64,000 nt of DNA, taken from contig NZ_CAAHFG010000003.1 of NCBI RefSeq assembly GCF_900890425.1, positions 868,001 through 932,000 on the forward strand, read 5' to 3'. The notes below the pieces were generated by a model that ran no database searches, was not told where the DNA came from, and saw nothing but the letters and a program-made list of their open reading frames with translations. Position 1 is the first letter of the stretch. Every line of letters begins with the position of its first letter. This document shows positions 4,705-52,877 of this stretch, piece after piece. The translations under genes were made by a program, and so were the position numbers. The stretch comes from Pontiella desulfatans (lineage in GTDB: Bacteria; Verrucomicrobiota; Kiritimatiellia; Kiritimatiellales; Pontiellaceae).

Positions 4705-4808
4705 ATAATGCTCTGTTCGGGCAAGCATTCGATGCATGATTTTATTTTGCATAAAAAAAGAAACGAAGCCTACTCATTTGACGGTATGTGGTTTATTGTG
4801 TCCCCGTT

Positions 4809-5417
4809 ATGAATGAGGAAACAAAGGGTACCTATCGCACACGGATGACGCTGCTGCAGAAGATGCAGAAACAGTATGATGAGAAGGCCTGGCAGGAGTT
4901 TGTGGATTCCTACAGCGGCTACATTTATACCATTATCAACAGCATGAATATTGCATCAAGTGATGCGGATGATCTGCGCCAGCAGATTTTTCTGAAGCTG
5001 TGGAAAAAGCTGCCGGATGTGGATCTGAATAAAATGACGCGCTTCCGGAGTTATCTGGCGGTGGTGGTCCGGAACTGCGTGAAGGATTTTCTGCGTAAAA
5101 AACAAAGGGATACCAACCGGTCCGATAAACTGGTGGATTCCGACTCCGAACTGACGGACTCTATTTCACTTCCGGATATCGATGGAATTATTGAGCGGGA
5201 ATGGAGCAATTATGTGGCGGCCCTGGCGTTTAAAAATATTGCCCAATATTTTTCTTCCGATGCGATGAAGCTTTTTGACGAATCCTTGAAGGGCAGGGAT
5301 ATTAAAGTGATTGCTGAAGAGCTGGGCATGCCCTTGAGTACCGCATATCGCCTGAAAAGTCGGGTTAAAGACAGTCTGATGGATGAAATTTCCGCACTGA
5401 ATGAATATATGGGATAA
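4809..5417 (+). CDS. ECF-type RNA polymerase sigma factor
   Basis: About 202 residues with sigma70 region 2 (DDLRQQIFLKLWKKL and the following RSYLAVVVRNCVKDFLRKK) and region 4 with a helix-turn-helix (VIAEELGMPLSTAYRLKSRVKDSL). Regions 1 and 3 are absent, as in extracytoplasmic-function sigma factors. The ATG at 4809 is chosen; a GTG 21 bp upstream in frame is possible and neither has a clear ribosome-binding site. The gene sits 32 bp before a transmembrane protein kinase, a pairing known for several PVC-group ECF families in which the kinase replaces the anti-sigma factor. It is the natural candidate to read the repeated ECF-like motif found upstream of several genes here, but this link is inference. 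Confidence 0.88.
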   Translation: MNEETKGTYRTRMTLLQKMQKQYDEKAWQEFVDSYSGYIYTIINSMNIASSDADDLRQQIFLKLWKKLPDVDLNKMTRFRSYLAVVVRNCVKDFLRKKQRDTNRSDKLVDSDSELTDSISLPDIDGIIEREWSNYVAALAFKNIAQYFSSDAMKLFDESLKGRDIKVIAEELGMPLSTAYRLKSRVKDSLMDEISALNEYMG

Positions 5418-5449
5418 TCCTTCAACGGGTCAGAAAATGAGAGCGGATC

Positions 5450-7540
5450 ATGAAGCACTTGGATGAAGAGTCGCCGGATTTCAGGAACCTGGGTTCCCGG
5501 ATCAATGATTTTCTGGATTCAGATCCGAAAGCGGACGAGGAATCAGAGCACGCGGGATCCGCACCCATTCTTCAATCGCTGGACGAATCCCGCTACCATT
5601 TTACCAACGAAGAGTTTCTGGTGGCGGGCGGTGCCAAAAAAATCTCGAGGGTCTATGACTCCCATTCCGGCCGTCACGTGGCCATGGCCAATCCGCTTCG
5701 CTGGAAAACCGAGTCGGAAAAGGAGGAGTTTCTGCGCGAAGCCCAGCTGACGGCCAAGCTGCAGCATCCGAATATTCTGCCGATTCATGAAGTCGGCCTG
5801 AACAGCGCGGGTGAACCCTATTTTATTATGCGCCTGCTCGAGGGCGAGGAGCTGAAAAATATTGTTCGGGAGCGTACGGCCGGGAATGAGGACTATCTTC
5901 AGCGTTTTGATCTGGATACACTGCTGGAAATATACCTGAAAGTCTGCGATGCCGTCATTTATGCCCATTCCCGGGGGGTACTTCATCTGGATCTTAAACC
6001 GGCCAATATCATGGTCGGTCGGTATGGATTGGTCACCTTGTTTGACTGGGGCCTGGCCCGGGTGGTGGGGGATGATGGAACGGTGATGATTGATCAGTCC
6101 GCGGAGGAGTTTGATCCGGACCTGCTGAATAATGTAACGCACTCCGGCATGTTAAAAGGAACACCGGGATATATGGCCCCGGAGCAGGTAACGGATTACG
6201 GGCAGGTTTGCGCCCGTACGGACGTCTATGCCCTGGGGGCGATTCTCTATTTTATTCTGACCGGTACCATTCCGGTCAGTGGCACCCACGCGGAAGAAGT
6301 AATTGAAAATACGGTTGCAGGAAATATCGTACGTCCCCGGATGCGGCGTCCCAATCGCAATATTCCAACCAGCCTGGGAGCCGTGGCCATGAAAGCCCTG
6401 CAATTGGAAACCCGCGACCGCTATGCCAGTGTCCAGGCGCTGCATGATGAAGTTACGCGCTATCTGCGCGGCTTCGCACCGGCGGCGGAAAATGCCCACA
6501 TTTTAAAACGTTCACAGCTGTTCATGCGCCGGCACAGTAAAATGGTATTCACGCTGATGATGTTCGGTATGGTGCTGACTGTGGTCATTGCCGTTTTACT
6601 TGCGCGCGTTTCCGTTCAGCGCAGTCAGGCCCTGACGGCTAAACGCGAGGCCATCCATAATCTGGCGCTGTATAAAGAGGAAACAAAAACCTCGCAGAAA
6701 CTCTATACCGATGTGCAGTCCTTTTTTGTGAATTCGATTATGCGGGGTGATATCTGGAACTATAGCCTCATGCGCCGCATGGTGAACAATGAATTGCAAA
6801 AGCCGGACCTGGATGAGAAATACCGCAAACAGTTATTCCAGATGAAAGCATATCTGCATTTCATCAATGAAGAGTTTAGCGCGGCGGTTCAGGCTTTCGA
6901 TCAGGCGAAATTTGATCAGAAGAATAATCTGTATAAACAGTGTCTATACTTCTTGGAGATCAAGCCGGATGACCAGCAACTTCTGGAACCGGCACATTTT
7001 TCTGAATTACTGGATATGCCGTATCGGAATACCTTGTTCCGTAAGAATATTTTATCCCGGTGTTATGAGCGGCACATGGCTCGGGCGGAAAGGTTGACGC
7101 CGCAGGAATACCTGCCGATTGCCATTGCGATCCTCAACCTGACCAATGATACGCTCGGCTGGGGCGATCATGTGAAACTGGAGCCTCGGGAGGGGGGGCA
7201 TCATTTGAATCTGAGGAATGCGCCCTATCACACCTTACGGCTTACAGAAACCCGTTGGGGTCAGGGGGCCAGTATTCTGCTGCCATTGGATCTTGTTTCG
7301 CTGGATTTGAGCGGTTCGCATATTCATGAGTTCCACGGGTTGAAGCTGCAGGATCGGTTTGAAGAGCTCATTCTGCTGGGATTGAAGTTTTATGATCCGG
7401 AACCCAACACCTATTGGTTGGGAAAAATTCCTATGGAGCGTCTGGTCATTACGGCAGGGGCCATACCTAGATATCATCTGGAACGCTTTCCTCAACACAT
7501 TGAAGTGATCGAAATTCCGCAAGGCCGTACCTATCCCTGA
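5450..7540 (+). CDS. Transmembrane Ser/Thr protein kinase, atypical ATP-site lysine
   Basis: A 696-residue protein: N-terminal kinase domain (about 50-345), one membrane helix (about 365-389, MVFTLMMFGMVLTVVIAVLL) and a roughly 300-residue C-terminal region, presumably periplasmic. Kinase landmarks: alpha-C Glu97 (EEFLREAQL), catalytic loop HLDLKPANI (Asp181, Asn186), DWG in place of DFG (Asp199), and GTPGYMAPEQ. The usual beta-3 VAIK is VAMA (77-80), with no lysine; the glycine-rich strand reads AGGAKKISRVYD with lysines at 63-64, recalling WNK kinases. After the membrane helix come helical, TPR-like segments (about 400-530) and leucine-rich segments (about 620-680, LVSLDLSGSHIHEF). Likely partner of the adjacent ECF sigma factor. 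Activity is unproven. Confidence 0.85.
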   Translation: MKHLDEESPDFRNLGSRINDFLDSDPKADEESEHAGSAPILQSLDESRYHFTNEEFLVAGGAKKISRVYDSHSGRHVAMANPLRWKTESEKEEFLREAQLTAKLQHPNILPIHEVGLNSAGEPYFIMRLLEGEELKNIVRERTAGNEDYLQRFDLDTLLEIYLKVCDAVIYAHSRGVLHLDLKPANIMVGRYGLVTLFDWGLARVVGDDGTVMIDQSAEEFDPDLLNNVTHSGMLKGTPGYMAPEQVTDYGQVCARTDVYALGAILYFILTGTIPVSGTHAEEVIENTVAGNIVRPRMRRPNRNIPTSLGAVAMKALQLETRDRYASVQALHDEVTRYLRGFAPAAENAHILKRSQLFMRRHSKMVFTLMMFGMVLTVVIAVLLARVSVQRSQALTAKREAIHNLALYKEETKTSQKLYTDVQSFFVNSIMRGDIWNYSLMRRMVNNELQKPDLDEKYRKQLFQMKAYLHFINEEFSAAVQAFDQAKFDQKNNLYKQCLYFLEIKPDDQQLLEPAHFSELLDMPYRNTLFRKNILSRCYERHMARAERLTPQEYLPIAIAILNLTNDTLGWGDHVKLEPREGGHHLNLRNAPYHTLRLTETRWGQGASILLPLDLVSLDLSGSHIHEFHGLKLQDRFEELILLGLKFYDPEPNTYWLGKIPMERLVITAGAIPRYHLERFPQHIEVIEIPQGRTYP

Positions 7541-7572: not shown

Positions 7573-7602
7573 TGAGAAACTTCCTGTTCATAGGCGTTTC
7601 TA
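7573..7602 (+). promoter_or_regulatory. ECF-like promoter motif, site 1
   Basis: TGAGAA (7573-7578), 14 bp, then GGCGTTTCTA (7593-7602), ending 48 bp before the beta-helix gene at 7651. The same two boxes with identical 14-bp spacing occur upstream of 11330 and 45651. Measured as GAGAA-N16-CGT, the geometry matches ECF promoters. No transcription data. Confidence 0.7.
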
Positions 7603-7650: not shown

Positions 7651-10600
7651 ATGAAAAAACGTTTATTACTAGCGATTCCTGTTCTTGTCGGTGCTGTTTT
7701 TGCTGAAGAATACTATGTTGCGACCAACGGGGTGAATGCGCTGCCGGGCGGTACCCTGGCAGCCCCGTTTGCGACCATTCAATATGGGGTTGATCAGCTC
7801 GATGCAGGCGATACGCTGACTATCCGGGGTGGCCGTTATCATGAAGGTGTGATCATTTCCGATTTGAATGGAAGTCTATCCGGAAGTGTCGATTGGTCCG
7901 GAGGAGTGGGCTGGGACGGCGACTGGATATTGGGCATCAATACCGCTTCAGGATCATCGGGCGGAAACACAGCGGTCAGAATGGTGAAGGCGGGGTCCAT
8001 GACCCGCACCCTGTCGACTGGTGTTTCCGGTTCTGCACTCTCGTTTAAATGGGATATTGATTCGTTTAATAATGCTTCGGATGTCGCTTCTGCAGAAGTT
8101 TTTGATGGGGCGTGGCATACCGTCTGGAGTATGGATAATGCGGGTAATTCCGGAGATGGCAACGATTCGCCGGATAACCTACAGACCGAGATCATCTCTC
8201 TAGCTGCATATGGCACGGTTTCGCAGATTCGCTTCAGCATGAGTGCCAGTACAGGAACCGGAGACTATTTCTTTATTGATGACGTTCAGATTGGATCGGC
8301 TTTTCATGATTTTGAAGGGGCTGGTGGAGCGGGAATCATTATCCGTAATTATGCAGAGGAACAGGTGATCATTGATGGAACTATTCCGATCGTCGGTGCC
8401 TGGAGCCCGGTCTCGAACGGCATTTATAAAACCTCCGTTTCAACCGATATCTGGCAATTGTTTGTGGATGATGAAATGCAGACTTCTGCGCGTTGGCCGG
8501 ATGCCGAGGCATGGACGGAGGCAATGTGGGATAAAGACGACCACTGGATTCAGCAGGATGCACCCAGTACCGACGGCACCTTTATTGATGAAGCCGGCGG
8601 ACCTGAGCTGGCGGCTTCCGGAAAAGATTTTTCCGGGGCAATCGCCATCATGAACACGGGCTCCTGGCTGTCGTTTGCCCGAGAGGTGACGGGGCATTCT
8701 GCGGGAAGCAACACCTTTACTTATGCACCTATCGGGAATCAGTATCATCATAAAATTATCAATGGTGCGGCATTCTTTGAGGCTTCCTATGCCTGTCTGA
8801 GCACAAACAGGGAATGGTTTTACAATGCATTAACCGATGAACTGTTTCTGATTCCGGACGACGGGGTTAATCCCTCAGGCAGGGAGATTCGCGGAAAGAC
8901 CCTGACGTACGGTCTGGATATATCCAATTCACAGAACATTGCGGTACGGGGTATCGATTTTTTCGCCTGTACCTTTAAGGTCGATACCTCCGATTCAATC
9001 ACGATTGAAGATGCTGATGTGCTTTTTCCTAGCTATTCGAAACGTATGCTCGGCAGCACAGCAAAAGCGGAGGCCACATTTTTTGATGGCGATGGCAACC
9101 AATTGCGTAATTGCACCTTCCAATATGCCGATGGAGCGGGCATTGAATTTGTCGGCGACGGCGGCCTGATTGAAAACTGTCTCTTTTATCAAATCGACTA
9201 CAGCTGTGTTGGAACATTGCATGATGTCATGGTGAATATCCGCAATGCATCGAATCTGACCTTTCGTCAGAATACCCTGGATACCGGAGGTAATTCGGTT
9301 GGCATTAAAGGAGGTCCCGCAAGTGTTTTCGAACTGAACCGGGTGACGAATCAGGGGATGCTGCAGCACGACGGTTCCGCTATTCAGACCGATGCCGACT
9401 ATACCGACGGCACCATTATGCAGCAAAACTGGGTTCATGATCATATCAAGTTTGCATTGCGTTTTGATTCTCCCTGGCTGGACCCGGCGGTATACGGAAC
9501 CAACGGGGTGATGCGTTATAACGTGCTTTGGAATACCCAGCCCATGGTCCCGAAGGGGGACTATCATCATATTTATAACAACACCGGATTTGATAATGAT
9601 GTGGTCGATATTTCGATTTTTTCCGATGTCACCCATGGCGGGGTTAATTCCAATACGGTGACGCGCAACAATGCCGTCAACCTGATCAGCGGCAGTCGGT
9701 CGGCGGCCGAGCCTTATCCGGGTATCGCGGATCATAACTGGTCGGGCAGCGAAGTGAAAAATGAACTTGTTGATCCGGCTCAATGGGATTTTCGGCCTGC
9801 CGTCGGTTCAGCGTTGATTGATGCAGGGACTAATGTTCCGGGACAGGTATCAGGTTACGTTGGTGTTGCGCCGGATATGGGCGCCTACGAATTTGGAAGC
9901 ACCAATTACTGGATTCCCGGTTTTATTCCGGCGCAGGCCGGCATGCCGATTCCAAACCTTGGAAGCGTGAATCAGCTCGAAGGCCGTGAACTGATTTTTC
10001 AACCGGGCTACGGGGCGGTCAGCGTTAAGGTCTATTTCGGAACCAATGCCGCAACGCTCCCAATGCTTGGGCATTTTCCGGCCGCACACAACGTGATTGA
10101 TCCGCGTGATCATGGCGTTATACCGCAGGGGAATACCGAGTATTATTGGCGGGTCGATACCGTGCTTTCGAATAATTCGGAAATTGCAGGTGAGGTCTGG
10201 AATTATACCACTGCCGATTATACCCCGACGGCGCCCGGCGTTGTTTTTTCTGATGATTTTGAGTCCTATATCCCGGGGTCCTCGCCGGCATCGAGCAACT
10301 GGGCCACGCAGATCACACTGGGTTCCGGAAGCATTCTGGTGGCCGAAAAGGGGGCGAGTCAGGTTGTTCGTTTGAACAACGCGTCAACCGTCGATGATCG
10401 CACCGTGCTTGGGGCGACCGATGTATTTCCGGAAGAAGGACTGATTACGCTCAGTTTTGACAGCTTTCATGATGGAGCGATTTCCATGACCGGACCCATG
10501 TCGCTTTCGGCCGGAATCGACAGCATCAGCAGCCATCTCAACCAGGCGCGGAAGGTCAGCCTGGCTCCGTACATTGCCACGAATATCTGGCATCATTTTG

Positions 10601-11241
10601 ACTGGGTCGTCAATCAAAGCGGTGCGGCTGTCGTGTATACGGTGGATGGGATTACCCATTCCGTTGCGAACGGCAGTGCCGATCTTTGGCAGGATGGATC
10701 GCTGGTTGTTGACAACGGCATCGACAAACCAGGGAATGGCAATGTTCTGACCGATACCACGAAGGTGGACAGTTTTGGCTGGACGGTCAATAAGGCGGAT
10801 GCCGCCGATTGGTATATGGATAATGTCGAGGTTCGGAACTACGCCTATGCGGAATACACCGCTCAAACTCCGCTCGAGGACTGGATGGCCATTTACGGTC
10901 TATCCGATCCGATGGCTGATCCTGATAGCGATGGACTGAATACGTTAAGCGAATTTGCTATGGGGGGTAATCCTACAAACGGCGCAGATATCGGGTATGA
11001 ATCGATTTTGGACAACCGCTCCGATCCGATGGTTTTCGTATATCCGCGCCGGCTCAATGCAGGACTAGTGTACTGGCTCGAAACCTCAACCAACCTGGTT
11101 TCCAATGTCTGGACGAACGGAGGATACACCGAGCTTCCTGCAACAGGAATGCTGGATCCGGAGTTTGAATCGGTGACCAATGAGGTCCCCGTTATTCTGC
11201 CTCAAACCTTCATCCGACTGATGATTGATCCCGTTCCATAA
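7651..11241 (+). CDS. Secreted multidomain parallel beta-helix protein
   Basis: 1196 residues, signal peptide about 1-18, start supported by AAAAGAGG. The N-terminal DUF1565-like start of a right-handed beta-helix (YYVATNGVNALPGGTLAAPFATIQ) is interrupted at about 72-215 by a lectin-like beta-sandwich ending in YFFIDDVQIGS; the helix then resumes (VIIDGTIPI) to about 750 and ends in APDMGAYEFG. Next come a YWIPG...WRVD...VWNYT Ig-like module (about 752-858), a second lectin-like domain (about 862-1070) and a C-terminal domain (about 1078-1196; DPDSDGLNTLSEFAMGGNP, FESVTN, FIRL) shared with the products of 11330 and 14576. The helix part resembles pectate-lyase-like and GH141-like enzymes, but no catalytic class can be assigned. 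Its upstream ECF-like motif suggests co-regulation with the cluster. Confidence 0.85.
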   Translation: MKKRLLLAIPVLVGAVFAEEYYVATNGVNALPGGTLAAPFATIQYGVDQLDAGDTLTIRGGRYHEGVIISDLNGSLSGSVDWSGGVGWDGDWILGINTASGSSGGNTAVRMVKAGSMTRTLSTGVSGSALSFKWDIDSFNNASDVASAEVFDGAWHTVWSMDNAGNSGDGNDSPDNLQTEIISLAAYGTVSQIRFSMSASTGTGDYFFIDDVQIGSAFHDFEGAGGAGIIIRNYAEEQVIIDGTIPIVGAWSPVSNGIYKTSVSTDIWQLFVDDEMQTSARWPDAEAWTEAMWDKDDHWIQQDAPSTDGTFIDEAGGPELAASGKDFSGAIAIMNTGSWLSFAREVTGHSAGSNTFTYAPIGNQYHHKIINGAAFFEASYACLSTNREWFYNALTDELFLIPDDGVNPSGREIRGKTLTYGLDISNSQNIAVRGIDFFACTFKVDTSDSITIEDADVLFPSYSKRMLGSTAKAEATFFDGDGNQLRNCTFQYADGAGIEFVGDGGLIENCLFYQIDYSCVGTLHDVMVNIRNASNLTFRQNTLDTGGNSVGIKGGPASVFELNRVTNQGMLQHDGSAIQTDADYTDGTIMQQNWVHDHIKFALRFDSPWLDPAVYGTNGVMRYNVLWNTQPMVPKGDYHHIYNNTGFDNDVVDISIFSDVTHGGVNSNTVTRNNAVNLISGSRSAAEPYPGIADHNWSGSEVKNELVDPAQWDFRPAVGSALIDAGTNVPGQVSGYVGVAPDMGAYEFGSTNYWIPGFIPAQAGMPIPNLGSVNQLEGRELIFQPGYGAVSVKVYFGTNAATLPMLGHFPAAHNVIDPRDHGVIPQGNTEYYWRVDTVLSNNSEIAGEVWNYTTADYTPTAPGVVFSDDFESYIPGSSPASSNWATQITLGSGSILVAEKGASQVVRLNNASTVDDRTVLGATDVFPEEGLITLSFDSFHDGAISMTGPMSLSAGIDSISSHLNQARKVSLAPYIATNIWHHFDWVVNQSGAAVVYTVDGITHSVANGSADLWQDGSLVVDNGIDKPGNGNVLTDTTKVDSFGWTVNKADAADWYMDNVEVRNYAYAEYTAQTPLEDWMAIYGLSDPMADPDSDGLNTLSEFAMGGNPTNGADIGYESILDNRSDPMVFVYPRRLNAGLVYWLETSTNLVSNVWTNGGYTELPATGMLDPEFESVTNEVPVILPQTFIRLMIDPVP

Positions 11242-11257
11242 TTATTTTCATTCGAAA

Positions 11258-11287
11258 TGAGAAGCCCGCAGACGAGTGGCGTTTCTA
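11258..11287 (+). promoter_or_regulatory. ECF-like promoter motif, site 2
   Basis: TGAGAA (11258-11263), 14 bp, GGCGTTTCTA (11278-11287), 42 bp before the start at 11330. Both boxes are identical to site 1 while the 14-bp spacer is unrelated, which argues against simple duplication of the region. Confidence 0.7.
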
Positions 11288-19456: not shown

Positions 19457-19609
19457 TGTGATTTTTTGTGAGTCAACGAATCCTTTCCGCCCGCATCCTA
19501 TCGGATGCTTCGGTGTCATTTAATTTGAGGCAACTCGCGTCAAAAGGTTTTGATTCCCGGAGGGAGCTTTTTTCGTCAAATTACGCCATTTCCGCGCAGT
19601 TAATTTTAT

Positions 19610-19639
19610 TGAGAAAACTCCGTTTTGGGGGCGTCTTTT
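19610..19639 (+). promoter_or_regulatory. ECF-like promoter motif, site 5
   Basis: TGAGAA (19610-19615), 14 bp, GGCGTCTTTT (19630-19639), 45 bp before the sulfatase start at 19685. The CGTC variant matches the canonical ECF -10 core. It lies outside the insertion sequence, so the downstream operon keeps its own promoter. Confidence 0.65.
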
Positions 19640-19684
19640 GAATAGATGCGGTAAAAGGCATCCAATATTGAATAAGGGATCAGG

Positions 19685-21391
19685 ATGAATACGATTAAAT
19701 TTCTTTTAGTAGTTTGGGTCATTGCAATGCTCGGTGGGAATGCCCGGGCATCAAAACCGAATATTCTCTTTATTATGTCGGATGACCACACCTCGCAGGC
19801 CATCGGGGCCTACGGCAGCCGGTTGGCGAAGCTGAATCCGACGCCGACGATCGATAAACTGGCCGAAGAGGGCATGGTGATGGAAAATGCCTTCTGCCAT
19901 AATGCCATCTGTACCCCAAGCCGCGCCTGCATCATGACCGGGCAATACAGCTCCATTAATGGATGTCCCACGCTGAACGATCCGCTGCCGGAGGAAAAGC
20001 AGTACCTGGCCCATGAAATGAAAAAGGCGGGGTATCAGACAGCGGTCATCGGTAAGTGGCATCTCAAGGCGCTTCCGACCGCATTCGATTACTACAAAGT
20101 CCTGCAGGGGCAGGGGGACTACTTTGATCCATTCTTTTTTGAAACCGGAGCGACCGGTGTGATCAAACGGCAGATGACCTGGGGCAATAAACCCTGGAAA
20201 ACCTTTGAAGGTGCCGTGGAGATGAAAGGCCACTCTACCGACTGCATTGCGGATTCCGCGCTGGAATGGTTTAAAGAAAAACGCGATCCGGATCAGCCGT
20301 TTTTCCTGAAGTTGCATTTTAAAGCCCCGCACGATTATTTTGAATATGCCCCGCGGTATGAAAGCTATCTCGAAGATGTGGAAATTCCGGAACCTTCCAA
20401 TCTTTGGAAACGGGAAAGCAACGGATCGCTTGCGACACGCGGTCACAACGATGAACTGCTGCCCTACATTGGAACGTCGGTCGGTCGCCGCAACCTGCGC
20501 CGGAATTATGCCGAGGACGAAAAAACGCCGTGGGCCGACAAGATGGATCACAGCCTGAATGATGAAGATATCAAACGTCAGGCTTACCAACTTTATCTGA
20601 AAGCCTACCTTCGCTGTGTAAAGGGGGTGGATGACAACCTCAAGCGTGTTGTTGATTACCTGAAGGCGGAAGGGCTCTATGATAATACCGTCATTATGTA
20701 TACCGGCGATCAGGGGTTCTATCTCGGCGAGCATGACTATATTGACAAGCGCTGGGCTTATGAAGAATCCATGCGCATGCCGTTTATTGTACGCTATCCG
20801 AAATCCATTCCTGCGGGCAGCCGTACCGACGCGGTGGTCGAAAATGTGGACTATGCACCGACGATGCTCGAGTTTGCCGGCGTGGAAACGCCGGACTATA
20901 TGCAGGGGCGCAGTTTTAAAAGTATCATCGAAACAGGCAAAGAGTCCAATGATTGGAAAAAGGCCGCGTACTATCATTATCAGATGCATATGTCGGCCCA
21001 TGATAATCCGGCCCACATCGCCATCCGCACCAAGCGCTATAAACTGATCCTGTTTTATGGAACCGGATGGAAGGGCGAGTCTGAGCCCGACACCCCGCCT
21101 GCCTGGGAACTCTACGACCTGAAACAGGATCCATCTGAAAACAACAATGTATACGACAATCCGGAATATGCTGAAGTGGTTCAGGAGCTGAAAGATGATT
21201 TGAAGGCGTTGCGGAAACAGTACAAAGTGGATGGATCTGAATTTGCGTATAACAAGGTGATCAATGAATTCTGGGAATATGGCGTAGCCGAACGGATCCG
21301 CGCGATCGAAATTTCCAACCAGATGGTGCAGAAGCATAAAGACGGTACCTGGACACATAATGTGAAGCGTACGCCGAAAAAGAAAAAATAG
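19685..21391 (+). CDS. Type I sulfatase, secreted
   Basis: 568 residues. Signal peptide about 1-22; metal ligands in [18 protein letters not shown]; maturation motif [14 protein letters not shown] with Cys76. [40 protein letters not shown] and [16 protein letters not shown] follow in family order. The SDDHT plus GDQGFxLGEH signatures group it with the sulfatase at 47837, which is alike over the full length; the present copy has an extra insertion near 165-185 ([13 protein letters not shown]). The basic tail ends in PKKKK. It has its own upstream ECF-like motif and is followed after 7 bp by another sulfatase and then GH29, probably one operon. Confidence 0.93.
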
Positions 21392-21398
21392 GGATAGG

Positions 21399-23252
21399 AT
21401 GAACATACTGAAACTATGTGTTGTTACAGGGCTTGTTTTCGGCGCAGTAGCTGCATCCGCTGAAAAGCCGAATGTGGTGATCGTGATTACGGACGATCAG
21501 GGCTATGGCGATCTCGGTTGCAATGGCAACACCGTCATCCAGACGCCGAACATTGACCGCCTGCGCGCTCAGGGTATACAGCTGGATAATTATCATGTGG
21601 ACCCCACCTGTGCGCCGACGCGTTCAGCCCTCATGACCGGTCGCTATTCTGCCCGGGTCGGGGTATGGCATACGGTGCAGGGGCGCAATATGCTGCGGGA
21701 ACGTGAAGTTACCATGGCCGATATTTTTAAAGATAATGGATATGAAACCGGCATCTTCGGGAAGTGGCATTTGGGCGACTGCTATCCCTACCGTCCGGAA
21801 GATCGTGGGTTCACCTATACGGTTTATCATGGCGCCGGCGGGGTCGGTCAGGCACCGGATTATTGGGGAAATGACTATTTTGATGACAGCTACATGAAAA
21901 ACGGAACCTGGCAAAAATTTACAGGGTTCTGCACGGATGTTTGGTTTGAGGAGGGCATCGCCTTCATCGAGGACAATGTTAAAAAGGATCAGCCGTTCTT
22001 TGCCTACATTGCGCCGAATGCACCCCATGGCCCGTTTTATTGTCCGGAGGAATATACCAAACCCTACGAAGGGAAAGAGGGCGTATCACGCACCGAGTTT
22101 TACGGTATGGTGACCAATATTGATGACAATATGGCCAAACTGATGAAGCGCCTGGATGAGCTGGGTATTGCCGATAACACCATTCTGATCTTTACCACGG
22201 ATAACGGCACCTCCGGCGGACTGCATAAAGGCGTCGGTTTTAATGCCGGGATGCGCGGTCAGAAAAATTCGGAGTATGACGGTGGTCATCGTGTGCCGTT
22301 TATCATGCGCTGGCCCGACGGAAAAATTCCGGCCGGTAAAAGTGTGAAACAGCTGACGGCCCATCTTGATATGCTGCCTACGTTTATTGATCTCTGCGGA
22401 TTGGAAGCACCGGAACTCGAATTTGACGGAACCAATATCCGTGACCTGCTCTATTCCGATGGAAGTCATTGGCCGGATCGCTCTCTGGTTGTGGAATCCC
22501 AACGGGTGGTCGATCCGATAAAATGGCGCAAGAGTGCCGTAATGACCGATCAATGGCGGCTGGTGAACGGAGAAGAACTTTTTGATATCCGAAACGACCC
22601 CGGTCAGGTGACGGATGTGAAAGACCAGCATCCCGAAGTTTTTGAACAGCTGCGCGGAAAGTATGAAACCTTCTGGAAGGATGTTTCCAGTGAACATAAC
22701 CTGACCAGCTATATGAAAATCGGTTCGGATGAATCGCCGGTGGTGGCCCTGTCCTCACACGACTGGCTGACGGCGAATGTGCCATGGTATCAGCCGCACA
22801 TCATGCATGGCGCCATGGCCAAGCCGGCCCACTGGGCGGTGGAGGTGGTTCGTGATGGAGAATATGAAATTTCACTGCGCCGCTGGCCGGTCGAAGCCGA
22901 TAAGCCGATCAATGCGGCCAATGGGTATAAAGGATTCGATTTTAAGCAGGCGCGTATGCGTGTTGCCGATGTGGATAAAACCAGGGAAATCCCTGAGGGC
23001 GCCAAAGAGGTGACCTTTAACGTGAAGTTGAAAAAGGGGCTGGTGGAACTGTCGCCTTTATTCATCGGCGGTGGCCGCGAAGCTACGCCGTATTATGTAT
23101 ATATCACCCATCAGCCGAAAGCCGGATGGCAAACACCGGAGGGAATGGGGGTTACTGTTTATGATCCATCCTATGGACGCGTCCCCCCGCAAAGACTGGA
23201 TCAGGATCATCCGACCCGGAACTGGGAGCCGAAGCCCGGCAAAAACCAATAG
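21399..23252 (+). CDS. Type I sulfatase with C-terminal extension
   Basis: 617 residues, longer than the roughly 450-500 of simple members. Signal peptide about 1-21; metal ligands in [18 protein letters not shown]; maturation motif [14 protein letters not shown] with Cys71. [30 protein letters not shown] and [11 protein letters not shown] follow. After the normal C-terminal subdomain ([16 protein letters not shown], about 390-405) comes an extra region of about 150 residues (about 455-610; [20 protein letters not shown]) that looks like a beta-sandwich and may bind substrate or shield the active site. It sits 7 bp after the previous sulfatase and 22 bp before GH29, so a sulfatase-sulfatase-fucosidase operon is likely. 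Confidence 0.92.
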
Positions 23253-23274
23253 AATGATTTACGGAGAGAAAATA

Positions 23275-24813
23275 ATGAAAAAAATGATGATTACTGCATT
23301 GGCTCTGACGGCCGTTACGGCCTCTTTTGCAGAGAAAACCTATGAGCCGACCTGGGAATCGCTCGATTCCCGCGAAACCCCGCAATGGTTCCCGGATGCC
23401 AAGTTCGGCATCTTTATTCACTGGGGGCTCTACTCCGTTCCGGCGTTTGCGCCGCGCGGAACCTATGCGGAATGGTACTGGCATTCCAAGGACGGTGACC
23501 AGTCCGGTAAGCATGCTGCCGCTGTCGGCCGGGCGGATGCCACACAGCAATTTCATAACCGGGTGTATGGTGAGGATTTTGAATATGCCGATTTTCGCGA
23601 TCAGTTTACCTGCGAAATGTTTGAGCCGGAGCATTGGGCGAAAGTCTTCAAGCGCAGCGGTGCAAAATATGTGGTACTGACCTCCAAACACCATGACGGC
23701 TACTGCCTCTGGCCGAGCAAGGAAGCTTCCAAGAGTTTTGGCATGGCCTGGAACTCGGTCGATTCAGGTCCGCGCCGTGACCTCGTCGGCGATCTGACCC
23801 AGGCTGTGCGCGACGAGGGTGGCATTAAGATGGGACTCTATTATTCCATCTGGGATTGGTTTAATCCCTACTGGCCGGAAGCCGAGCAACCGACCACCGG
23901 GGCCAAGCGCAAGATGAATCTGCCTGAAGAGGGGCGTAAGAAATATATTGATGAAGTCATGGTACCACAGATCAAGGATATCGTGACTAGGTATGAACCC
24001 GCGGTGATCTTTTCCGACGGTGACTGGTGGATGGATGATGACAAGTGGGGCACAAAGCCGGCGTTAGCCTGGCTCTATAATCACGCGCCTAACAAAGATG
24101 AAGTCGTCATCAACGACCGTTGGGGCAAGGTGCGCAAGAAACACGGCGGTTATTTTACTACGGAATACGGATCCGGCTTTGCAGATCCTAGCATTCTCTG
24201 GGAAGAAAACCGCGGCATTGGAAAATCCTTCGGTTTCAGCCGGGTAGAAACCTTCGATGATTATAATACCGGAGAGCTGCTGATCTATATGCTTTGCGAT
24301 ATTGTATCGCGCGGCGGGAACTTCCTGTTGGACATCGGACCGACCGCAGATGGCCGTATTCCGATTGTCATGGAAGATCGTCTGATCCAGATCGGCGAAT
24401 GGCTTGAAGTGAATGGCGAAGCGATCTTCGAAACGCGCCGTTGGAAAAAGGACTGCCAGTGGAGTGCGGGTGAAATTAAGGAATACACCAAAGAGGAATT
24501 CCATCACGGCGTACCGGACCCGATCATTGAAATGGCCAAATATCCGAAAGAAGGCCAGGCGCGCAAGGAATGTTACTTTACCGCCAAGGGCGATACGGTC
24601 TACGCCATGATCACGGAACTGCCGGATGAGGATGAGTTTGAGATTAAAGATATTGAACTCAGCAAAGGATCCAAAGTCACCATGCTGGGCGTCGATGGTG
24701 AACTGGAATGGGAAAAAGAAGGCAACGGCATCGAAGTCGAACTGCCTCGTCTCAATCCAAGTAAACTGCCCTGCAACCACGTCTTTACACTGAAGATTAC
24801 CGGCGTTAAATAG
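23275..24813 (+). CDS. GH29 alpha-L-fucosidase, secreted
   Basis: 512 residues. The ATG at 23275 with GGAGAG upstream is chosen over longer frames because the signal peptide (1-19) begins there. GH29 barrel motifs: AKFGIFIHWGLYSVPAF, TSKHHDGYCLWPS (about 136-148), GLYYSIWDWFNPYWP, and VIFSDGDWW, where Asp248 aligns with the GH29 nucleophile. GGNFLLDIGPTADGRIP closes the catalytic domain and a short beta domain follows. The family hydrolyses terminal alpha-L-fucosides with retention. It is the last gene of the 19685 operon and is followed by a good terminator. Confidence 0.93.
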   Translation: MKKMMITALALTAVTASFAEKTYEPTWESLDSRETPQWFPDAKFGIFIHWGLYSVPAFAPRGTYAEWYWHSKDGDQSGKHAAAVGRADATQQFHNRVYGEDFEYADFRDQFTCEMFEPEHWAKVFKRSGAKYVVLTSKHHDGYCLWPSKEASKSFGMAWNSVDSGPRRDLVGDLTQAVRDEGGIKMGLYYSIWDWFNPYWPEAEQPTTGAKRKMNLPEEGRKKYIDEVMVPQIKDIVTRYEPAVIFSDGDWWMDDDKWGTKPALAWLYNHAPNKDEVVINDRWGKVRKKHGGYFTTEYGSGFADPSILWEENRGIGKSFGFSRVETFDDYNTGELLIYMLCDIVSRGGNFLLDIGPTADGRIPIVMEDRLIQIGEWLEVNGEAIFETRRWKKDCQWSAGEIKEYTKEEFHHGVPDPIIEMAKYPKEGQARKECYFTAKGDTVYAMITELPDEDEFEIKDIELSKGSKVTMLGVDGELEWEKEGNGIEVELPRLNPSKLPCNHVFTLKITGVK

Positions 24814-27512: not shown

Positions 27513-27542
27513 TGGGAATCTGCGCGCCCATGGGCGTTCATA
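27513..27542 (+). promoter_or_regulatory. ECF-like promoter motif, site 4
   Basis: TGGGAA (27513-27518), 14 bp, GGCGTTCATA (27533-27542), 28 bp before the first GH117-like gene at 27571 and directly after the stop of the preceding gene. It probably drives the coupled GH117-like trio. Confidence 0.6.
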
Positions 27543-31160: not shown

Positions 31161-32663
31161 GTGTACATAGACATGCAATGGTGGACCGATATCAGACGAA
31201 AGGTGCTTGTTGAAGGCGTCAGCAAGCGACAGGTTAAGGCCGAGTACAGGATTCACACCAAGACGCTGGAGAAGATTCTGGCGCACCCCAAGCCTCCGGG
31301 ATACCGGATGGCCCAGCCGAGGCCGAAGCCCATGATCGGGCCGTTTCTCGGTCGGATCGACGAGATTCTCCGGCAGGACCGGGAGTTGCCAAAAAAGCAA
31401 CGGCATACGGCCAAGCGGATTTTTGATCGCCTGAAAGAGGAAGGATACACCGGCGGGTATACGCAGGTGAAAGATGCCGTGCGCAACGCCCGGGTGCGTC
31501 TGAAGGATGTCTACATTCCGCTGGCCCATCGGCCCGGAGAGGCGCAGATGGATTTCGGCTATGCCCTCGCTAAAATAAACGGCCAGCTTCGGAAGGTCGC
31601 ATTTTTTGTGATGAGCCTGCCGTATTCGGATGCGGTTTATGTGCAGGCCTACGAAAAGATCTGCACGGAGGTTTTCTGGGATGGGCATGTGAGGGCCTTC
31701 ACCTTTTTCGATGGCGTACCCTGCCGTATCAGCTACGACAACGAGCGGGTGATGGTGGCCAAGGTGATGAAGCGCCACCAACGCAAGCTCACCGACGGGT
31801 TCCTCCAGCTCCAGAGCCACTATCTGTTCAAGGAACACTTCTGCAACGTGGCCCGAGGTAACGAAAAGGGCGTGGTCGAATCGATGGTGCGCTATACTCG
31901 TTCCAACTTCATGGTTCCGGTGCCGGAGGTTCGTAGCTTTGATGAGCTCAACCGCATGCTTGAAGAGCGTTGCCGGGAGGAGCTTGGGCGTAAACTGCGG
32001 GGCAAGGACGGAACGAAGGGGCAGTTGCTGGCCGATGAGCGTGGCCGTTTTATTGATCTGCCGGTCGTGCCGTTCGAGTCCTGCCGGGTGCGAACCTGCA
32101 CCGCCAGCTCCTTGTCGCTCGTGCGTTTCGACGGCAACGATTATTCGGTGCCCGTGCGCTACGCCCACTACGAAACGGTGGTCAAGGGCTATATCGACCG
32201 GATTGTGGTCTGCCGGGGCGATGAATGCATCGCCGAACATCCCCGGTTGTGGGGCAAGGCCGGCGTCCATTTCAACCCCGTGCACTATCTCGCACTGCTC
32301 GAACGCAAGCCCGGCGGGCTCGACCACGCCCGGCCATTGGAAGACTGGAAACTGCCATCCTGCTTTCGGGATCTGCGCAGCAGGCTGGAGGCCGATCTCG
32401 ATGGCGAAGGAACCCGGGAGTACATCAAGGTGCTGCGTCTGCTCGAAAAGCATTCACCCAAGGAACTGGCCCGGGCCGTTGAGCAGGGGCTGCGTTGCGG
32501 GGCCTCCTCCCGAGACGCCATTGCCCAGTTCCTCATTCCCCGGCCGGAATGGCGATGCACCCGGTTCAACCTGGATGGACACGAGCATCTACGCCACGTG
32601 CAGGTCGCCAGCGCAGATGTGGCCGATTACAATCGCCTGCTCGGACAGGAGGTGGGCGCATGA
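31161..32663 (+). CDS. istA: IS21 transposase IstA
   Basis: 500 residues. N-terminal helix-turn-helix region (VEGVSKRQVKAEYRIHTKTL), then an integrase core with Asp131 (AQMDFGYALAKING), Asp193 (ISYDNERVMV) and Glu240 (EKGVVESMVRYTRSNF), and a C-terminal beta domain (YSVPVRYAHYETVV). The GTG start at 31161 follows GGGAGGTAAAGGAG; an ATG 12 bp further in is also possible. It is nearly identical to the copy at 50596 except near the C-terminus. Confidence 0.95.
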   Translation: MYIDMQWWTDIRRKVLVEGVSKRQVKAEYRIHTKTLEKILAHPKPPGYRMAQPRPKPMIGPFLGRIDEILRQDRELPKKQRHTAKRIFDRLKEEGYTGGYTQVKDAVRNARVRLKDVYIPLAHRPGEAQMDFGYALAKINGQLRKVAFFVMSLPYSDAVYVQAYEKICTEVFWDGHVRAFTFFDGVPCRISYDNERVMVAKVMKRHQRKLTDGFLQLQSHYLFKEHFCNVARGNEKGVVESMVRYTRSNFMVPVPEVRSFDELNRMLEERCREELGRKLRGKDGTKGQLLADERGRFIDLPVVPFESCRVRTCTASSLSLVRFDGNDYSVPVRYAHYETVVKGYIDRIVVCRGDECIAEHPRLWGKAGVHFNPVHYLALLERKPGGLDHARPLEDWKLPSCFRDLRSRLEADLDGEGTREYIKVLRLLEKHSPKELARAVEQGLRCGASSRDAIAQFLIPRPEWRCTRFNLDGHEHLRHVQVASADVADYNRLLGQEVGA

Positions 32664-33442
32664 GTGCACAGACCTCGTCACACGTACTGCTGGAGCACTA
32701 CCTCAAAACGCTCAAGCTGCCGAGTATCCTGCGGGAGCACCGCAAGATGGCCTCGGTCTGCCAGGCCGAAGGGGCCGACTACTCGACCTACCTGCTGCGG
32801 CTCATCGAACAGGAGATTCATGACCGGGAACAACGGGCCGCCGAACGCCGGCTCAAGTCCGCCCGTTTCCCCGTCGTGAAAACCCTCGATAGCTTCCGGT
32901 TCGAGGAGCAGCCATCGATCAACCAGCCGCTAGTGCGGGAGCTTGCCCACGGCGAGTTTATCAAGGAGCGGGAGAACGTATTGCTGATCGGCAACAGCGG
33001 AACCGGAAAAACCCACCTCGCCACCGCCTTGGCGTTCGCCGCCTGCCAGATGGGCTTCAAGGTGCGGTTCTTCGGCGTCACCGCCCTGGTCACGCAGTTG
33101 CTCGAACGCCGGGAGGAAAGGCAGCTTGACCGGTTCTTCAAGCAACTCGAGCGCTCCGACCTGCTCGTTCTCGATGAACTCGGCTACGTTCCGTTCTCCA
33201 AGCTGGGGGCTGAACTGCTTTTCGAAGTCGTCAGCCGGGCCTACGAACGCACCAGCCTCGTGGTGACCACGAACCTGCCCTTCGAATCATGGACGGAGGT
33301 GCTGGGCTCCCAGCGGCTTACCGGAGCCTTGCTCGACCGCCTGACCCACCGGGTCCATATCCTCGAGGCCAATGGTGAAAGCTTCAGGTTGCAGGACTCA
33401 TTGCGCCGCCGGGGACAGCGGCAGAAAACAAAGAAACCGTAG
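32660..33442 (+). CDS. istB: IS21 helper ATPase IstB
   Basis: 260 residues, DnaA/AAA-type ATPase that assists IstA in target capture. Walker A LLIGNSGTGKTHLATAL (about 108-124) and Walker B DLLVLDELGYVPFS. The start at 32660 overlaps the istA stop as ATGA and gives the same length as the second copy; longer in-frame starts lie inside istA. Confidence 0.95.
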   Translation: MSAQTSSHVLLEHYLKTLKLPSILREHRKMASVCQAEGADYSTYLLRLIEQEIHDREQRAAERRLKSARFPVVKTLDSFRFEEQPSINQPLVRELAHGEFIKERENVLLIGNSGTGKTHLATALAFAACQMGFKVRFFGVTALVTQLLERREERQLDRFFKQLERSDLLVLDELGYVPFSKLGAELLFEVVSRAYERTSLVVTTNLPFESWTEVLGSQRLTGALLDRLTHRVHILEANGESFRLQDSLRRRGQRQKTKKP

Positions 33443-42279: not shown

Positions 42280-42309
42280 TGAGAAAATATGCGTTTCCCG
42301 ACGTCTGTA
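42280..42309 (+). promoter_or_regulatory. ECF-like promoter motif, site 6
   Basis: TGAGAA (42280-42285), 14 bp, GACGTCTGTA (42300-42309), 27 bp before the GH29 start at 42337. It overlaps an upstream in-frame ATG at 42289, which supports 42337 as the true start. Confidence 0.65.
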
Positions 42310-45593: not shown

Positions 45594-45623
45594 TGAGAAT
45601 TTTGTGAACGTCCGGCGTTTCTA
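45594..45623 (+). promoter_or_regulatory. ECF-like promoter motif, site 3
   Basis: TGAGAA (45594-45599), 14 bp, GGCGTTTCTA (45614-45623), 27 bp before the transporter start at 45651 and right after a terminator, as expected for a genuine promoter. Confidence 0.75.
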
Positions 45624-45650
45624 ACATCATTAACCTACAGGAGTATGGGA

Positions 45651-47721: not shown

Positions 47722-47836
47722 ATTGATTATTTATGATCATTGAGACGGTGAATGCCGGTGAACTAAAGCGCATGAAATAGAATGCATGCTAATGGCGCTG
47801 TGCTTACATGCGATGTCGGGAATGGAGGAGTGGGGC

Positions 47837-50595: not shown

Positions 50596-52098
50596 GTGTA
50601 CATAGACATGCAATGGTGGACCGATATCAGACGAAAGGTGCTTGTTGAAGGCGTCAGCAAGCGACAGGTTAAGGCCGAGTACAGGATTCACACCAAGACG
50701 CTGGAGAAGATTCTGGCGCACCCCACGCCTCCGGGATACCGGATGGCCCAGCCGAGGCCGAAGCCCATGATCGGGCCGTTTCTCGGTCGGATCGACGAGA
50801 TTCTCCGGCAGGACCGGGAGTTGCCAAAAAAGCAACGGCATACGGCCAAGCGGATTTTTGATCGCCTGAAAGAGGAAGGATACACCGGCGGGTATACGCA
50901 GGTGAAAGATGCCGTGCGCAACGCCCGGGTGCGTCTGAAGGATGTCTACATTCCGCTGGCCCATCGGCCCGGAGAGGCGCAGATGGATTTCGGCTATGCC
51001 CTCGCTAAAATAAACGGCCAGCTTCGGAAGGTCGCATTTTTTGTGATGAGCCTGCCGTATTCGGATGCGGTTTATGTGCAGGCCTACGAAAAGATCTGCA
51101 CGGAGGTTTTCTGGGATGGGCATGTGAGGGCCTTCACCTTTTTCGATGGCGTACCCTGCCGTATCAGCTACGACAACGAGCGGGTGATGGTGGCCAAGGT
51201 GATGAAGCGCCACCAACGCAAGCTCACCGACGGGTTCCTCCAGCTCCAGAGCCACTATCTGTTCAAGGAACACTTCTGCAACGTGGCCCGAGGTAACGAA
51301 AAGGGCGTGGTCGAATCGATGGTGCGCTATACTCGTTCCAACTTCATGGTTCCGGTGCCGGAGGTTCGTAGCTTTGATGAGCTCAACCGCATGCTTGAAG
51401 AGCGTTGCCGGGAGGAGCTTGGGCGTAAACTGCGGGGCAAGGACGGAACGAAGGGGCAGTTGCTGGCCGATGAGCGTGGCCGTTTTATTGATCTGCCGGT
51501 CGTGCCGTTCGAGTCCTGCCGGGTGCGAACCTGCACCGCCAGCTCCTTGTCGCTCGTGCGTTTCGACGGCAACGATTATTCGGTGCCCGTGCGCTACGCC
51601 CACTACGAAACGGTGGTCAAGGGCTATATCGACCGGATTGTGGTCTGCCGGGGCGATGAATGCATCGCCGAACATCCCCGGTTGTGGGGCAAGGCCGGCG
51701 TCCATTTCAACCCCGTGCACTATCTCGCACTGCTCGAACGCAAGCCCGGCGGGCTCGACCACGCCCGGCCATTGGAAGACTGGAAACTGCCATCCTGCTT
51801 TCGGGATCTGCGCAGCAGGCTGGAGGCCGATCTCGATGGCGAAGGAACCCGGGAGTACATCAAGGTGCTGCGTCTGCTCGAAAAGCATTCACCCAAGGAA
51901 CTGGCCCGGGCCGTTGAGCAGGGGCTGCGTTGCGGGGCCTCCTCCCGAGACGCCATTGCCCAGTTCCTCATTCCCCGGCCGGAATGGCGATGCACCCGGT
52001 TCAGCCTCGACGGCCATGAGCATCTACGAGAGGTCCAGGTGGACTGCGTCGATGTGGCCGACTACAACCGTCTGCTCGGACAGGAGGTGGGCGCATGA
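50596..52098 (+). CDS. istA: IS21 transposase IstA (copy 2)
   Basis: 500 residues with Asp131, Asp193 and Glu240 as in copy 1. Differences: Thr for Lys at residue 44 (HPTPPGYR) and a cluster at the C-terminus (FSLDGHEHLREVQVDCVDV). Catalytically complete. Confidence 0.95.
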   Translation: MYIDMQWWTDIRRKVLVEGVSKRQVKAEYRIHTKTLEKILAHPTPPGYRMAQPRPKPMIGPFLGRIDEILRQDRELPKKQRHTAKRIFDRLKEEGYTGGYTQVKDAVRNARVRLKDVYIPLAHRPGEAQMDFGYALAKINGQLRKVAFFVMSLPYSDAVYVQAYEKICTEVFWDGHVRAFTFFDGVPCRISYDNERVMVAKVMKRHQRKLTDGFLQLQSHYLFKEHFCNVARGNEKGVVESMVRYTRSNFMVPVPEVRSFDELNRMLEERCREELGRKLRGKDGTKGQLLADERGRFIDLPVVPFESCRVRTCTASSLSLVRFDGNDYSVPVRYAHYETVVKGYIDRIVVCRGDECIAEHPRLWGKAGVHFNPVHYLALLERKPGGLDHARPLEDWKLPSCFRDLRSRLEADLDGEGTREYIKVLRLLEKHSPKELARAVEQGLRCGASSRDAIAQFLIPRPEWRCTRFSLDGHEHLREVQVDCVDVADYNRLLGQEVGA

Positions 52099-52877
52099 GC
52101 ACGAAGACCCCGTCGCATGTACTGCTCGAGCACTACCTTAAAACGCTGAAGCTGCCGAGTGTCCTGCGGGAGCACCGCAAGATGGCCTCGGTCTGCCAGG
52201 CCGAACGGGCCGATTACTCGACCTATTTGCTGCGGCTCATCGAACAGGAGATTCACGACCGGGAACAACGGGCCGCCGAACGCCGCCTCAAGTCCGCCCG
52301 TTTCCCCGTTGTGAAAACCCTCGACAGCTTCCGGTTCGAGGAGCAGCCCTCGATCAACCAGCCGCTGGTGAGGGAACTAGCCCATGGCGAGTTTATCAAG
52401 GAGCGGGAGAACGTGCTGCTGATCGGCAACAGCGGAACCGGAAAAACCCACCTCGCCACCGCCCTGGCCTTCGCCGCCTGCCAGATGGGCTTCAAGGTGC
52501 GGTTCTTCGGCGTCACCGCCCTGGTCACGCAGTTGCTCGAACGCCGGGAGGAAAGGCAGCTTGACCGGTTCTTCAAGCAACTCGAGCGCTCCGACCTGCT
52601 CGTGCTCGATGAACTCGGCTACGTTCCGTTCTCCAAGCTGGGGGCAGAACTGCTTTTCGAAGTCGTCAGCCGGGCCTACGAACGCACCAGCGTCGTGGTC
52701 ACCACGAACCTGCCCTTCGAATCATGGACGGAGGTGCTGGGCTCGCAGCGGCTCACTGGCGCTTTACTCGATCGATTGACCCACCGGGTCCATATCCTCG
52801 AAGCCAATGGTGAAAGTTTCAGGCTGCAGGACTCATTGCGCCGCCGGGGACAACGGCAGAAAACAAAGAAACCGTAG
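52095..52877 (+). CDS. istB: IS21 helper ATPase IstB (copy 2)
   Basis: 260 residues, Walker A LLIGNSGTGKTHLATAL and Walker B LLVLDELGYVP intact; ATGA overlap with istA. It differs from copy 1 mainly at the N-terminus (MSTKTPSH, PSVLREH, AERADYS) and in one residue (TSVVVT), with many synonymous changes. Confidence 0.95.
   Translation: MSTKTPSHVLLEHYLKTLKLPSVLREHRKMASVCQAERADYSTYLLRLIEQEIHDREQRAAERRLKSARFPVVKTLDSFRFEEQPSINQPLVRELAHGEFIKERENVLLIGNSGTGKTHLATALAFAACQMGFKVRFFGVTALVTQLLERREERQLDRFFKQLERSDLLVLDELGYVPFSKLGAELLFEVVSRAYERTSVVVTTNLPFESWTEVLGSQRLTGALLDRLTHRVHILEANGESFRLQDSLRRRGQRQKTKKP

Follow-up and report, generated by a model that had tools for sequence, protein, structure and literature searches.

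The 64,000-nucleotide stretch of the Pontiella desulfatans genome analysed here, referred to below as the window, carries an extracytoplasmic function (ECF) sigma factor gene followed by the gene of a Hanks-type membrane kinase, and the two probably form a local switch, made of one sigma and one kinase, for a cluster devoted to a polysaccharide rich in fucose and sulfate. A probability of about 0.6 is given to this reading, which leaves the phosphorylation step open. What the sequences themselves contain is a pairing that runs across a paralog family, a kinase lysine that is relocated while the other catalytic residues are kept, and a promoter motif at six starts of the cluster. The pair is located as follows:

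4809..5417, plus strand: ECF sigma factor of 202 amino acids (aa) from the ATG at 4809, with Asp52, Asp55 and Gln58 and with Thr11 and Thr14.
4788-5417, plus strand: the same sigma factor from an alternative GTG start at 4788, which adds 7 aa.
5450..7540, plus strand: Hanks-type membrane kinase of 696 aa, with Ala80, Lys63, HLD and DWG, a transmembrane helix at 366-384 and a C-terminal region resembling tetratricopeptide repeats (TPR) and leucine-rich repeats (LRR).

Both genes are on the plus strand, separated by 32 bp, and no anti-sigma domain was detected in Pfam scans of the open reading frames (ORFs) neighbouring the pair. The arrangement given in the preliminary description, which was made from the sequence alone, is confirmed by these ORFs and scans: a transmembrane kinase lies downstream of the sigma gene and an anti-sigma gene is absent. 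Two sulfatases and a GH20 hexosaminidase are found upstream of the pair, while sulfatases, alpha-L-fucosidases, GH43-like enzymes, beta-helix proteins and sugar transporters follow in a run downstream. As every promoter found in the window is downstream of the pair, its placement at the head of the cluster, made in the same description, also fits.

A sigma search of the own genome (8.66 Mb in 6 contigs) returned 20 paralogs at E <= 1.6e-14, plus three weak ones, and a kinase search returned 25 matches. A kinase adjoins all 20 clear sigma paralogs, with gaps from a 53-bp overlap to 1324 bp, and the pairing is therefore more than chance. Thirteen of these pairs run from sigma to kinase (five overlapping by 4 bp), six are convergent and one has the kinase before the sigma. 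The convergent pairs, p02 to p07, hold the nearest paralogs of the window sigma, and a tandem layout is seen in the window pair, in its orthologue of genome G028 (identity of 79% for the sigma and 72% for the kinase) and in its G004 and G005 relatives. Across four sister genomes, all 35 sigma matches were taken, so that none was chosen by its kinase, and 33 stand beside a kinase; one is an orphan (L262) and the remaining one is partial, 3.1 kb from a kinase. Both counts extend to the family the kinase partner in place of an anti-sigma factor, as proposed for the window. In a phylum-wide scan of 79 genomes at E <= 1e-50, four contained the sigma family. Three of these belong to the own genus; in the fourth (G042), no kinase was seen within 1.5 kb of the sigma. 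Concerning single pairs, a transposase-like ORF lies between sigma and kinase of the convergent pair p03 (L003, G000:C1:2202293-2203821). The core convergent pair p04 (L051, L250, L259, L270, L277) is the most widespread, its flanking genes not being sulfatases in five genomes; between species, its sigmas are 90-98% and its kinases only 68-80% identical, and its neighbours are a HAD-like protein and a protein of about 550 aa rich in lysine.

The displaced ATP-binding lysine is a feature absent from the preliminary description. In 17 of the 20 paired kinases of the own genome, the beta3 (VAIK) lysine is gone and an invariant lysine stands in the glycine loop instead. The window kinase has Ala80 at the beta3 position and Lys63 at the third glycine of the loop, both invariant in the 17 aligned own-genome kinases most like it (17/17), as are Glu97, Asp181, Lys183, Asn186 and Asp199 (window numbering). 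It reads HLD for HRD and DWG for DFG, with Glu97, Asp181, Asn186 and Asp199 kept; hence, among the marks of Hanks-type kinases, the fold, the alpha-C glutamate, HxD, the asparagine and DxG are present and the VAIK lysine is missing. Six other own-genome kinases, those of p18-p20 and three more, possess an ordinary beta3 lysine and no loop lysine, and a seventh protein appears canonical by eye. The canonical-lysine kinases of p18-p20 (L064, L065, L066) are 1199-1489 aa long, with the gene of a conserved, roughly 150-aa protein between sigma and kinase.

The same alternation is seen among relatives. The kinase-alignment scan took the best 80 of 571 relatives, one genome per species; two kinase rows with unreadable positions were dropped, and this set overlaps partly with the sister genomes (G019, G021). 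Exactly one of the two lysine positions is filled in 94 of 94 readable kinases, 37 with the loop lysine only, 57 with the beta3 lysine only, and none with both or neither. An ECF sigma gene lies within 300 bp of 26 of the 37 relocated-lysine kinases versus 1 of the 57 canonical ones (Fisher P 2e-13, relatedness ignored), and leucine replaces the HRD arginine in 36/37 versus 1/57. The relocated-lysine kinases come from Kiritimatiellales/Pontiellaceae, Lentisphaer-/Victivallaceae-type bacteria, Verrucomicrobiota and one Planctomycetota bin. As for the four sister genomes, 31 of 33 sigma-paired kinases have the displaced lysine and 2 are canonical. In a tree of 117 kinase domains, made by a quick method with the trait columns left out, explaining the lysine trait takes two changes, compared with about 39 on average after shuffling, and well-supported branches force one of the two; a single origin is thus possible rather than shown. 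Kinase ORFs of only 367-422 aa with the displaced lysine (L104, L113, L115, L117, L121) were also observed in Lentisphaeria/Victivallaceae metagenome-assembled genomes, with no ECF sigma within 300 bp, some of them cut by contig ends.

From this conservation, it is quite probable that the kinase is active through Lys63. The alternative is a pseudokinase or scaffold that acts as an anti-sigma factor would, binding the sigma and releasing it upon a signal, with Lys63 only aiding nucleotide binding. According to the accessible text of PMC12599244, a missing beta3 lysine counts among the three criteria usually applied to pseudokinases. Both the HRD arginine and the DFG phenylalanine are changed as well. 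However, the alpha-C glutamate, the HxD aspartate, the lysine and asparagine of the catalytic loop and the DxG aspartate are invariant in 17/17, and the one-lysine rule among the readable kinases points to selection for a catalytic lysine and not to decay, which makes a pseudokinase improbable, although it is the best surviving of the alternatives. The seven bacterial pseudokinase families of the same source (PMC12599244), as described in its available part, carry GLW for HRD, a beta3 arginine, a lost DFG aspartate and so on; compared by description, the window kinase appears unlike those covered there, keeping the HxD and DxG aspartates and combining a beta3 alanine with a loop lysine.

Regarding its structure, the kinase domain matches Pkinase of Pfam at 4.8e-33 (residues 59-334) and is followed by one strong hydrophobic helix (366-384). 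The whole-kinase AlphaFold2 (AF2) model has a predicted local distance difference test score (pLDDT) of 79.6 and a predicted template modelling score (pTM) of 0.48 (17 sequences). In this model, a strand at 63-70 starts at Lys63, a strand at 75-82 contains Ala80 and a helix at 88-103 contains Glu97. The best structural match of the kinase part is PknB of Mycobacterium tuberculosis (Z 30.4, root-mean-square deviation 2.3, 255 residues, 31% identity), with which it shares the Hanks-type fold; PknB itself has the beta3 lysine in its canonical place and is not known to have an ECF sigma neighbour. The solved kinase domain of PknS from Xanthomonas citri, which is paired with an ECF43 sigma, is Foldseek rank 5. 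Modelled separately, the C-terminal part reaches a pLDDT of 89.9 and a pTM of 0.83 (20 sequences), forming a long helix, TPR-like helical hairpins and then an LRR-like strand region. The leucine-rich and TPR-like region noticed earlier is therefore present in the AF2 model; no Pfam match was obtained for it in the window's own protein, and the structural matches are weak by the tool's own yardstick (best Z 8.9, with LRR proteins among the top rows). That the outer domain senses a glycan, as was also put forward, is doubtful.

The closest parallel for the lysine is the eukaryotic protein kinase family WNK. As in WNK, the beta3 lysine is absent, a glycine-loop lysine stands at the start of beta2 and the alpha-C glutamate is kept. 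In an hhalign alignment with a WNK1 sequence piece exactly matching PDB 4pwn, Lys63 falls in the column of the WNK1 glycine-loop lysine and Ala80 on the WNK1 cysteine with no gap between, giving the same 17-residue spacing to the vacated position. Unlike WNK, the present protein is a bacterial membrane kinase with HLD for HRD, DWG, and alanine rather than cysteine at the beta3 position. The top fold and sequence matches are bacterial, and WNK is not among the rows listed (50 Foldseek/structural-alignment rows and 60 further rows), an absence that decides nothing; as PknB and other bacterial kinases are the closest solved structures, the resemblance to WNK is most likely convergent. Kannan and others (2007), in the accessible text of PMC1821047, describe Wnk as the only functional eukaryotic protein kinase family without K72, K55 substituting for it. 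The same accessible text (PMC1821047) proposes a shift of positive charge from position 72 to 55 in the kinase-like subfamily CAK-chloro, a comparable move; it differs in being of choline/aminoglycoside type, with Met72/Arg55 and phenylalanine in place of the alpha-C glutamate.

An active kinase could also be directed at other proteins of the envelope or metabolism, with a sigma that is constitutive or transcriptionally controlled and the two genes being mere co-moving neighbours. Six of the 20 own pairs are convergent, so sigma and kinase are not co-transcribed there, and 11 of the 37 relocated-lysine kinases, some on short contigs, have no sigma within 300 bp. On the other hand, the pairing outlasts changes of orientation (tandem, convergent, kinase first), includes the 4-bp overlaps and occurs in several phyla, so that this explanation is given little weight.

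The link between the pair and its cluster comes from the motif TGRGAA-N14-GRCGTY, derived from aligned orthologous upstream regions of the window and G028, where conserved blocks precede 7651, 19685 and 27571. Its exact matches in the window, as candidate promoters, are:

7573..7598, plus strand: promoter 53 bp before the gene of a 1196-aa protein (7651-11241), conserved before the G028 orthologue.
11258..11283, plus strand: promoter before the gene of a protein at 11330/11369-13675.
19610..19635, plus strand: promoter 50 bp before a sulfatase at 19685, followed by a sulfatase at 21399 and an alpha-L-fucosidase at 23071/23254.
27513..27538, plus strand: promoter 33 bp before a set of three GH43-like genes, the first at 27571.
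42280..42305, plus strand: promoter 56 bp before an alpha-L-fucosidase if this starts at 42361.
45594..45619, plus strand: promoter 26 bp before a RhaT-like sugar transporter at 45645, followed by an aldose epimerase at 46687 and a sulfatase at 47786.

All six are intergenic, on the plus strand and 26-86 bp before a cluster gene; the alternative start 42289 of the later alpha-L-fucosidase would overlap its promoter. Shuffled windows contain 0.05 motifs on average, none of 100 reaching six. The motif occurs once in 400 kb of control stretches of the own genome (20 stretches) and once in 353 kb of the 18 other pair loci. The whole genome holds 14, six in the window and eight elsewhere, versus 2 for a reversed-pattern control. 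Seven of the 14 are intergenic and precede a gene, namely the window six and one on contig 4, whereas five of the others are inside genes and two are intergenic without a close downstream gene. The contig 4 site (L301, G000:C4 near 344 kb) lies in a copy 96.8% identical to window 19538-21134, before the copied sulfatase, which may be part of the same regulon although outside the cluster. G028 has 12 motifs (reversed control 9), of which 5 fall in the 35 kb of the syntenic cluster, and in about 1.2 Mb of G004 the sole motif precedes the fucosidase gene that lies next to the sigma-kinase pair and diverges from it. G002 and G019, whose best sigma relatives are only 45-46% identical, have 1 and 6 motifs, respectively, scattered as judged from their positions. 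In an unguided count of upstream dyads, the words of this motif came up in the window, and the 38 other loci had none of them. The supposition of a cluster-specific promoter thus holds, with six window sites, rarity elsewhere in the genome and recurrence in the syntenic cluster of G028. A motif standing at cluster starts, rare elsewhere and recurring in the sister cluster suggests that the pair very probably regulates this fucosidase/sulfatase cluster through it.

Other promoter forms were tried and rejected. A first guess, GAAAC-N20-TATG, matched exactly at 6 places of varying spacing, two of which precede cluster genes; it was dropped, as nothing clear appeared with one mismatch and it is not conserved upstream of the G028 sigma. 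An N16 spacer for TGRGAA/GRCGTY gave nothing, and spacers of 12, 13, 15 and 16 have zero exact matches in the window. No cluster-specific dyads were found at the other 18 pair loci, except for one three-copy word at L064; therefore, an own promoter for each pair cannot be claimed.

The sigma factor matches Sigma70_r2 of Pfam (8.6e-14) and the NCBIfam model TIGR02937, sigma70-ECF (6.7e-19; 68.1 bits versus a cut-off of 42.9; residues 27-190), with weak region 4 matches (HTH_23 at 0.0013 and Sigma70_r4_2 at 0.039); it thus has regions 2 and 4 and lacks region 3, as ECF sigma factors do. Against TIGR02989, the Rhodopirellula/Verrucomicrobium ECF subfamily, it scores 45.1 bits, below the curated cut-off of 124.55. 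In an alignment of 79 family members (those below 170 or above 300 aa left out, the orphan L262 kept), acidic residues fill the sigma2.2 positions 52, 54 and 55 in 99%, 89% and 100%, respectively, and Gln58 is invariant. The window sigma keeps DxxDxxQ (Asp52, Asp55, Gln58); the final glutamate of the DxxDxxQE consensus is a glutamine, this position being acidic in only 20% of the 79.

Neighbouring ECF sigma and Ser/Thr kinase genes are known from ECF groups of the Planctomycetes-Verrucomicrobia-Chlamydiae phyla, for instance in planctomycetes, which the present pairs resemble, with p18-p20 standing apart through their long canonical kinases and the small gene between. Iyer 2020, Casas-Pastor 2021 and Jogler 2012 are reportedly the key works on such groups. 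EcfP/PknT of Vibrio is an ECF43 sigma with a Hanks-type kinase. The present pair is like the ECF43 system EcfK/PknS of Xanthomonas citri, an ECF sigma with a transmembrane Ser/Thr kinase, as described in the available part of PMC13147305. According to the same partial text (PMC13147305), ECF43 members have lost the sigma2.2 consensus DxxDxxQE, the missing acidic DxxD being replaced via a phospho-threonine. In contrast, the window sigma keeps DxxD and has no conserved linker Ser/Thr, and the lysine of its kinase is relocated. An ECF43-type charge-replacement switch was ruled out, since residues 52 and 55 are kept and a phosphate in place of a missing charge is not needed. No conserved Ser/Thr was found at positions 45-62 of the 79 sigmas, nor does any column of the linker between sigma2 and sigma4, the region of T106 in EcfK, hold Ser/Thr in half of them or more, so the conserved linker residue considered at the outset is not there. 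What is conserved is an N-terminal TRx(T/S)L, in which Thr11 is invariant and residue 14 either Thr or Ser throughout the 77 sequences reaching it.

Several observations weigh against the proposed switch. The motif was seen first in three orthologous upstream alignments, and therefore only 3 of 6 window sites (P 6e-5, 3 of 11) and 2 of 5 G028 sites (P 0.002, 2 of 9) are independent of its discovery. Neither TGRGAA-N14-GRCGTY nor another promoter was found before the sigma gene, whose upstream region is not conserved in G028; hence, there is no sign of self-amplification. The assignment of the motif to the sigma comes from location and ECF-like form. A motif on contig 5 (L302, G000:C5:31555-31580, minus strand) sits inside the last part of a gene, with the following gene 45 bp away, and could be chance or a further regulon member. 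In addition, the sigmas of two pairs with canonical kinases (p18, p20) carry TRx(T/S)L too, which makes it a mark of the sigma family rather than of the unusual kinase; its role may be a structural one, that of capping the first helix.

The motif might instead belong to another sigma or be the operator of another regulator, with the pair merely adjacent, as the missing motif before the sigma gene would allow, but the window pair holds the window's only sigma of the family, the motif clusters co-occur with the orthologous pair in the own genome and G028, a single motif lies beside the G004 relative and the genomes with distant sigmas have scattered ones, which makes this a slim prospect.

For the local switch, the following course is proposed. 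The kinase domain would be cytoplasmic and active, Lys63 doing the work of the missing beta3 lysine, and the part beyond the membrane would receive a signal, perhaps an oligosaccharide or an envelope cue. The kinase would then activate the sigma, most simply by phosphorylation, perhaps at the invariant TRx(T/S)L, and the sigma would direct RNA polymerase to TGRGAA-N14-GRCGTY. That the kinase acts by phosphorylating the sigma stands at even odds, whereas TRx(T/S)L as the site seems rather unlikely. It is less likely still that a WNK-like design was independently invented in bacteria in its full form, in which a loop-lysine kinase phosphorylates TRx(T/S)L instead of a site in sigma2.2 or the linker and the vacated pocket serves as a regulatory site for an ion or metabolite.

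The order of the cluster is kept in G028, where the proteins of the main genes are 71-91% identical. Its putative target operon is:

19685..24813, plus strand: sulfatase, sulfatase and alpha-L-fucosidase, with G028 orthologues 80-91% identical in the same order.

A second sigma-kinase pair (G028:C1:2418360-2421055; 51% to the window sigma) lies inside the same polysaccharide cluster of G028. The orthologous clade comprises the window, its nearest paralog, two G028 loci and one each of G004 and G005. Sulfatases occur in 6/6 of these loci, numbering 20 over 155 kb or, once the window is set aside, 11 over 91 kb, and fucosidases in 4/6. The 17 other pair loci hold 10 sulfatases in 333 kb, versus 14 in 400 kb of controls, the control stretches all being from the own genome and the clade partly from others. 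Enrichment is supported for the clade without the window (P 0.0005) and rejected for the other pair loci (P 0.73), so the association of such pairs with sulfatase loci stands for this clade and fails for the family as a whole. The own genome is sulfatase-rich, with 555 first-look candidates, of which 150 were scored, and nearness to sulfatases alone means little at such a density; for strain F1, the accessible text of PMC6388578 gives 521 sulfatases. As the association is found in the clade and not in the family, the sigma-kinase family resembles a signalling module of general use, this clade serving fucose-rich sulfated polysaccharides. Two IS21-type transposase/IstB copies (31161-33442 and 50596-52877) are present in the sulfatase cluster and may bear on its rearrangement relative to G028, and an AbiEii-like nucleotidyltransferase toxin gene lies at 60148-61068 on the minus strand.

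In the open literature, with subscription journals sparsely covered, no work was recognised on ECF-kinase pairs of these phyla, nor on bacterial displaced-lysine kinases, for which an earlier notice is possible; the searched text on these sulfatase-rich bacteria contains nothing on ECF sigma factors or Ser/Thr kinases. If the reading is true, a bacterial family with a WNK-like lysine move would be a second natural experiment on the purpose of the catalytic lysine, offering a strict one-lysine rule, a tie to transcription and a small clonable system. For the organism itself, sigma, kinase and promoter together would be a candidate regulatory code for some of the sulfatases that such bacteria encode by the hundreds.

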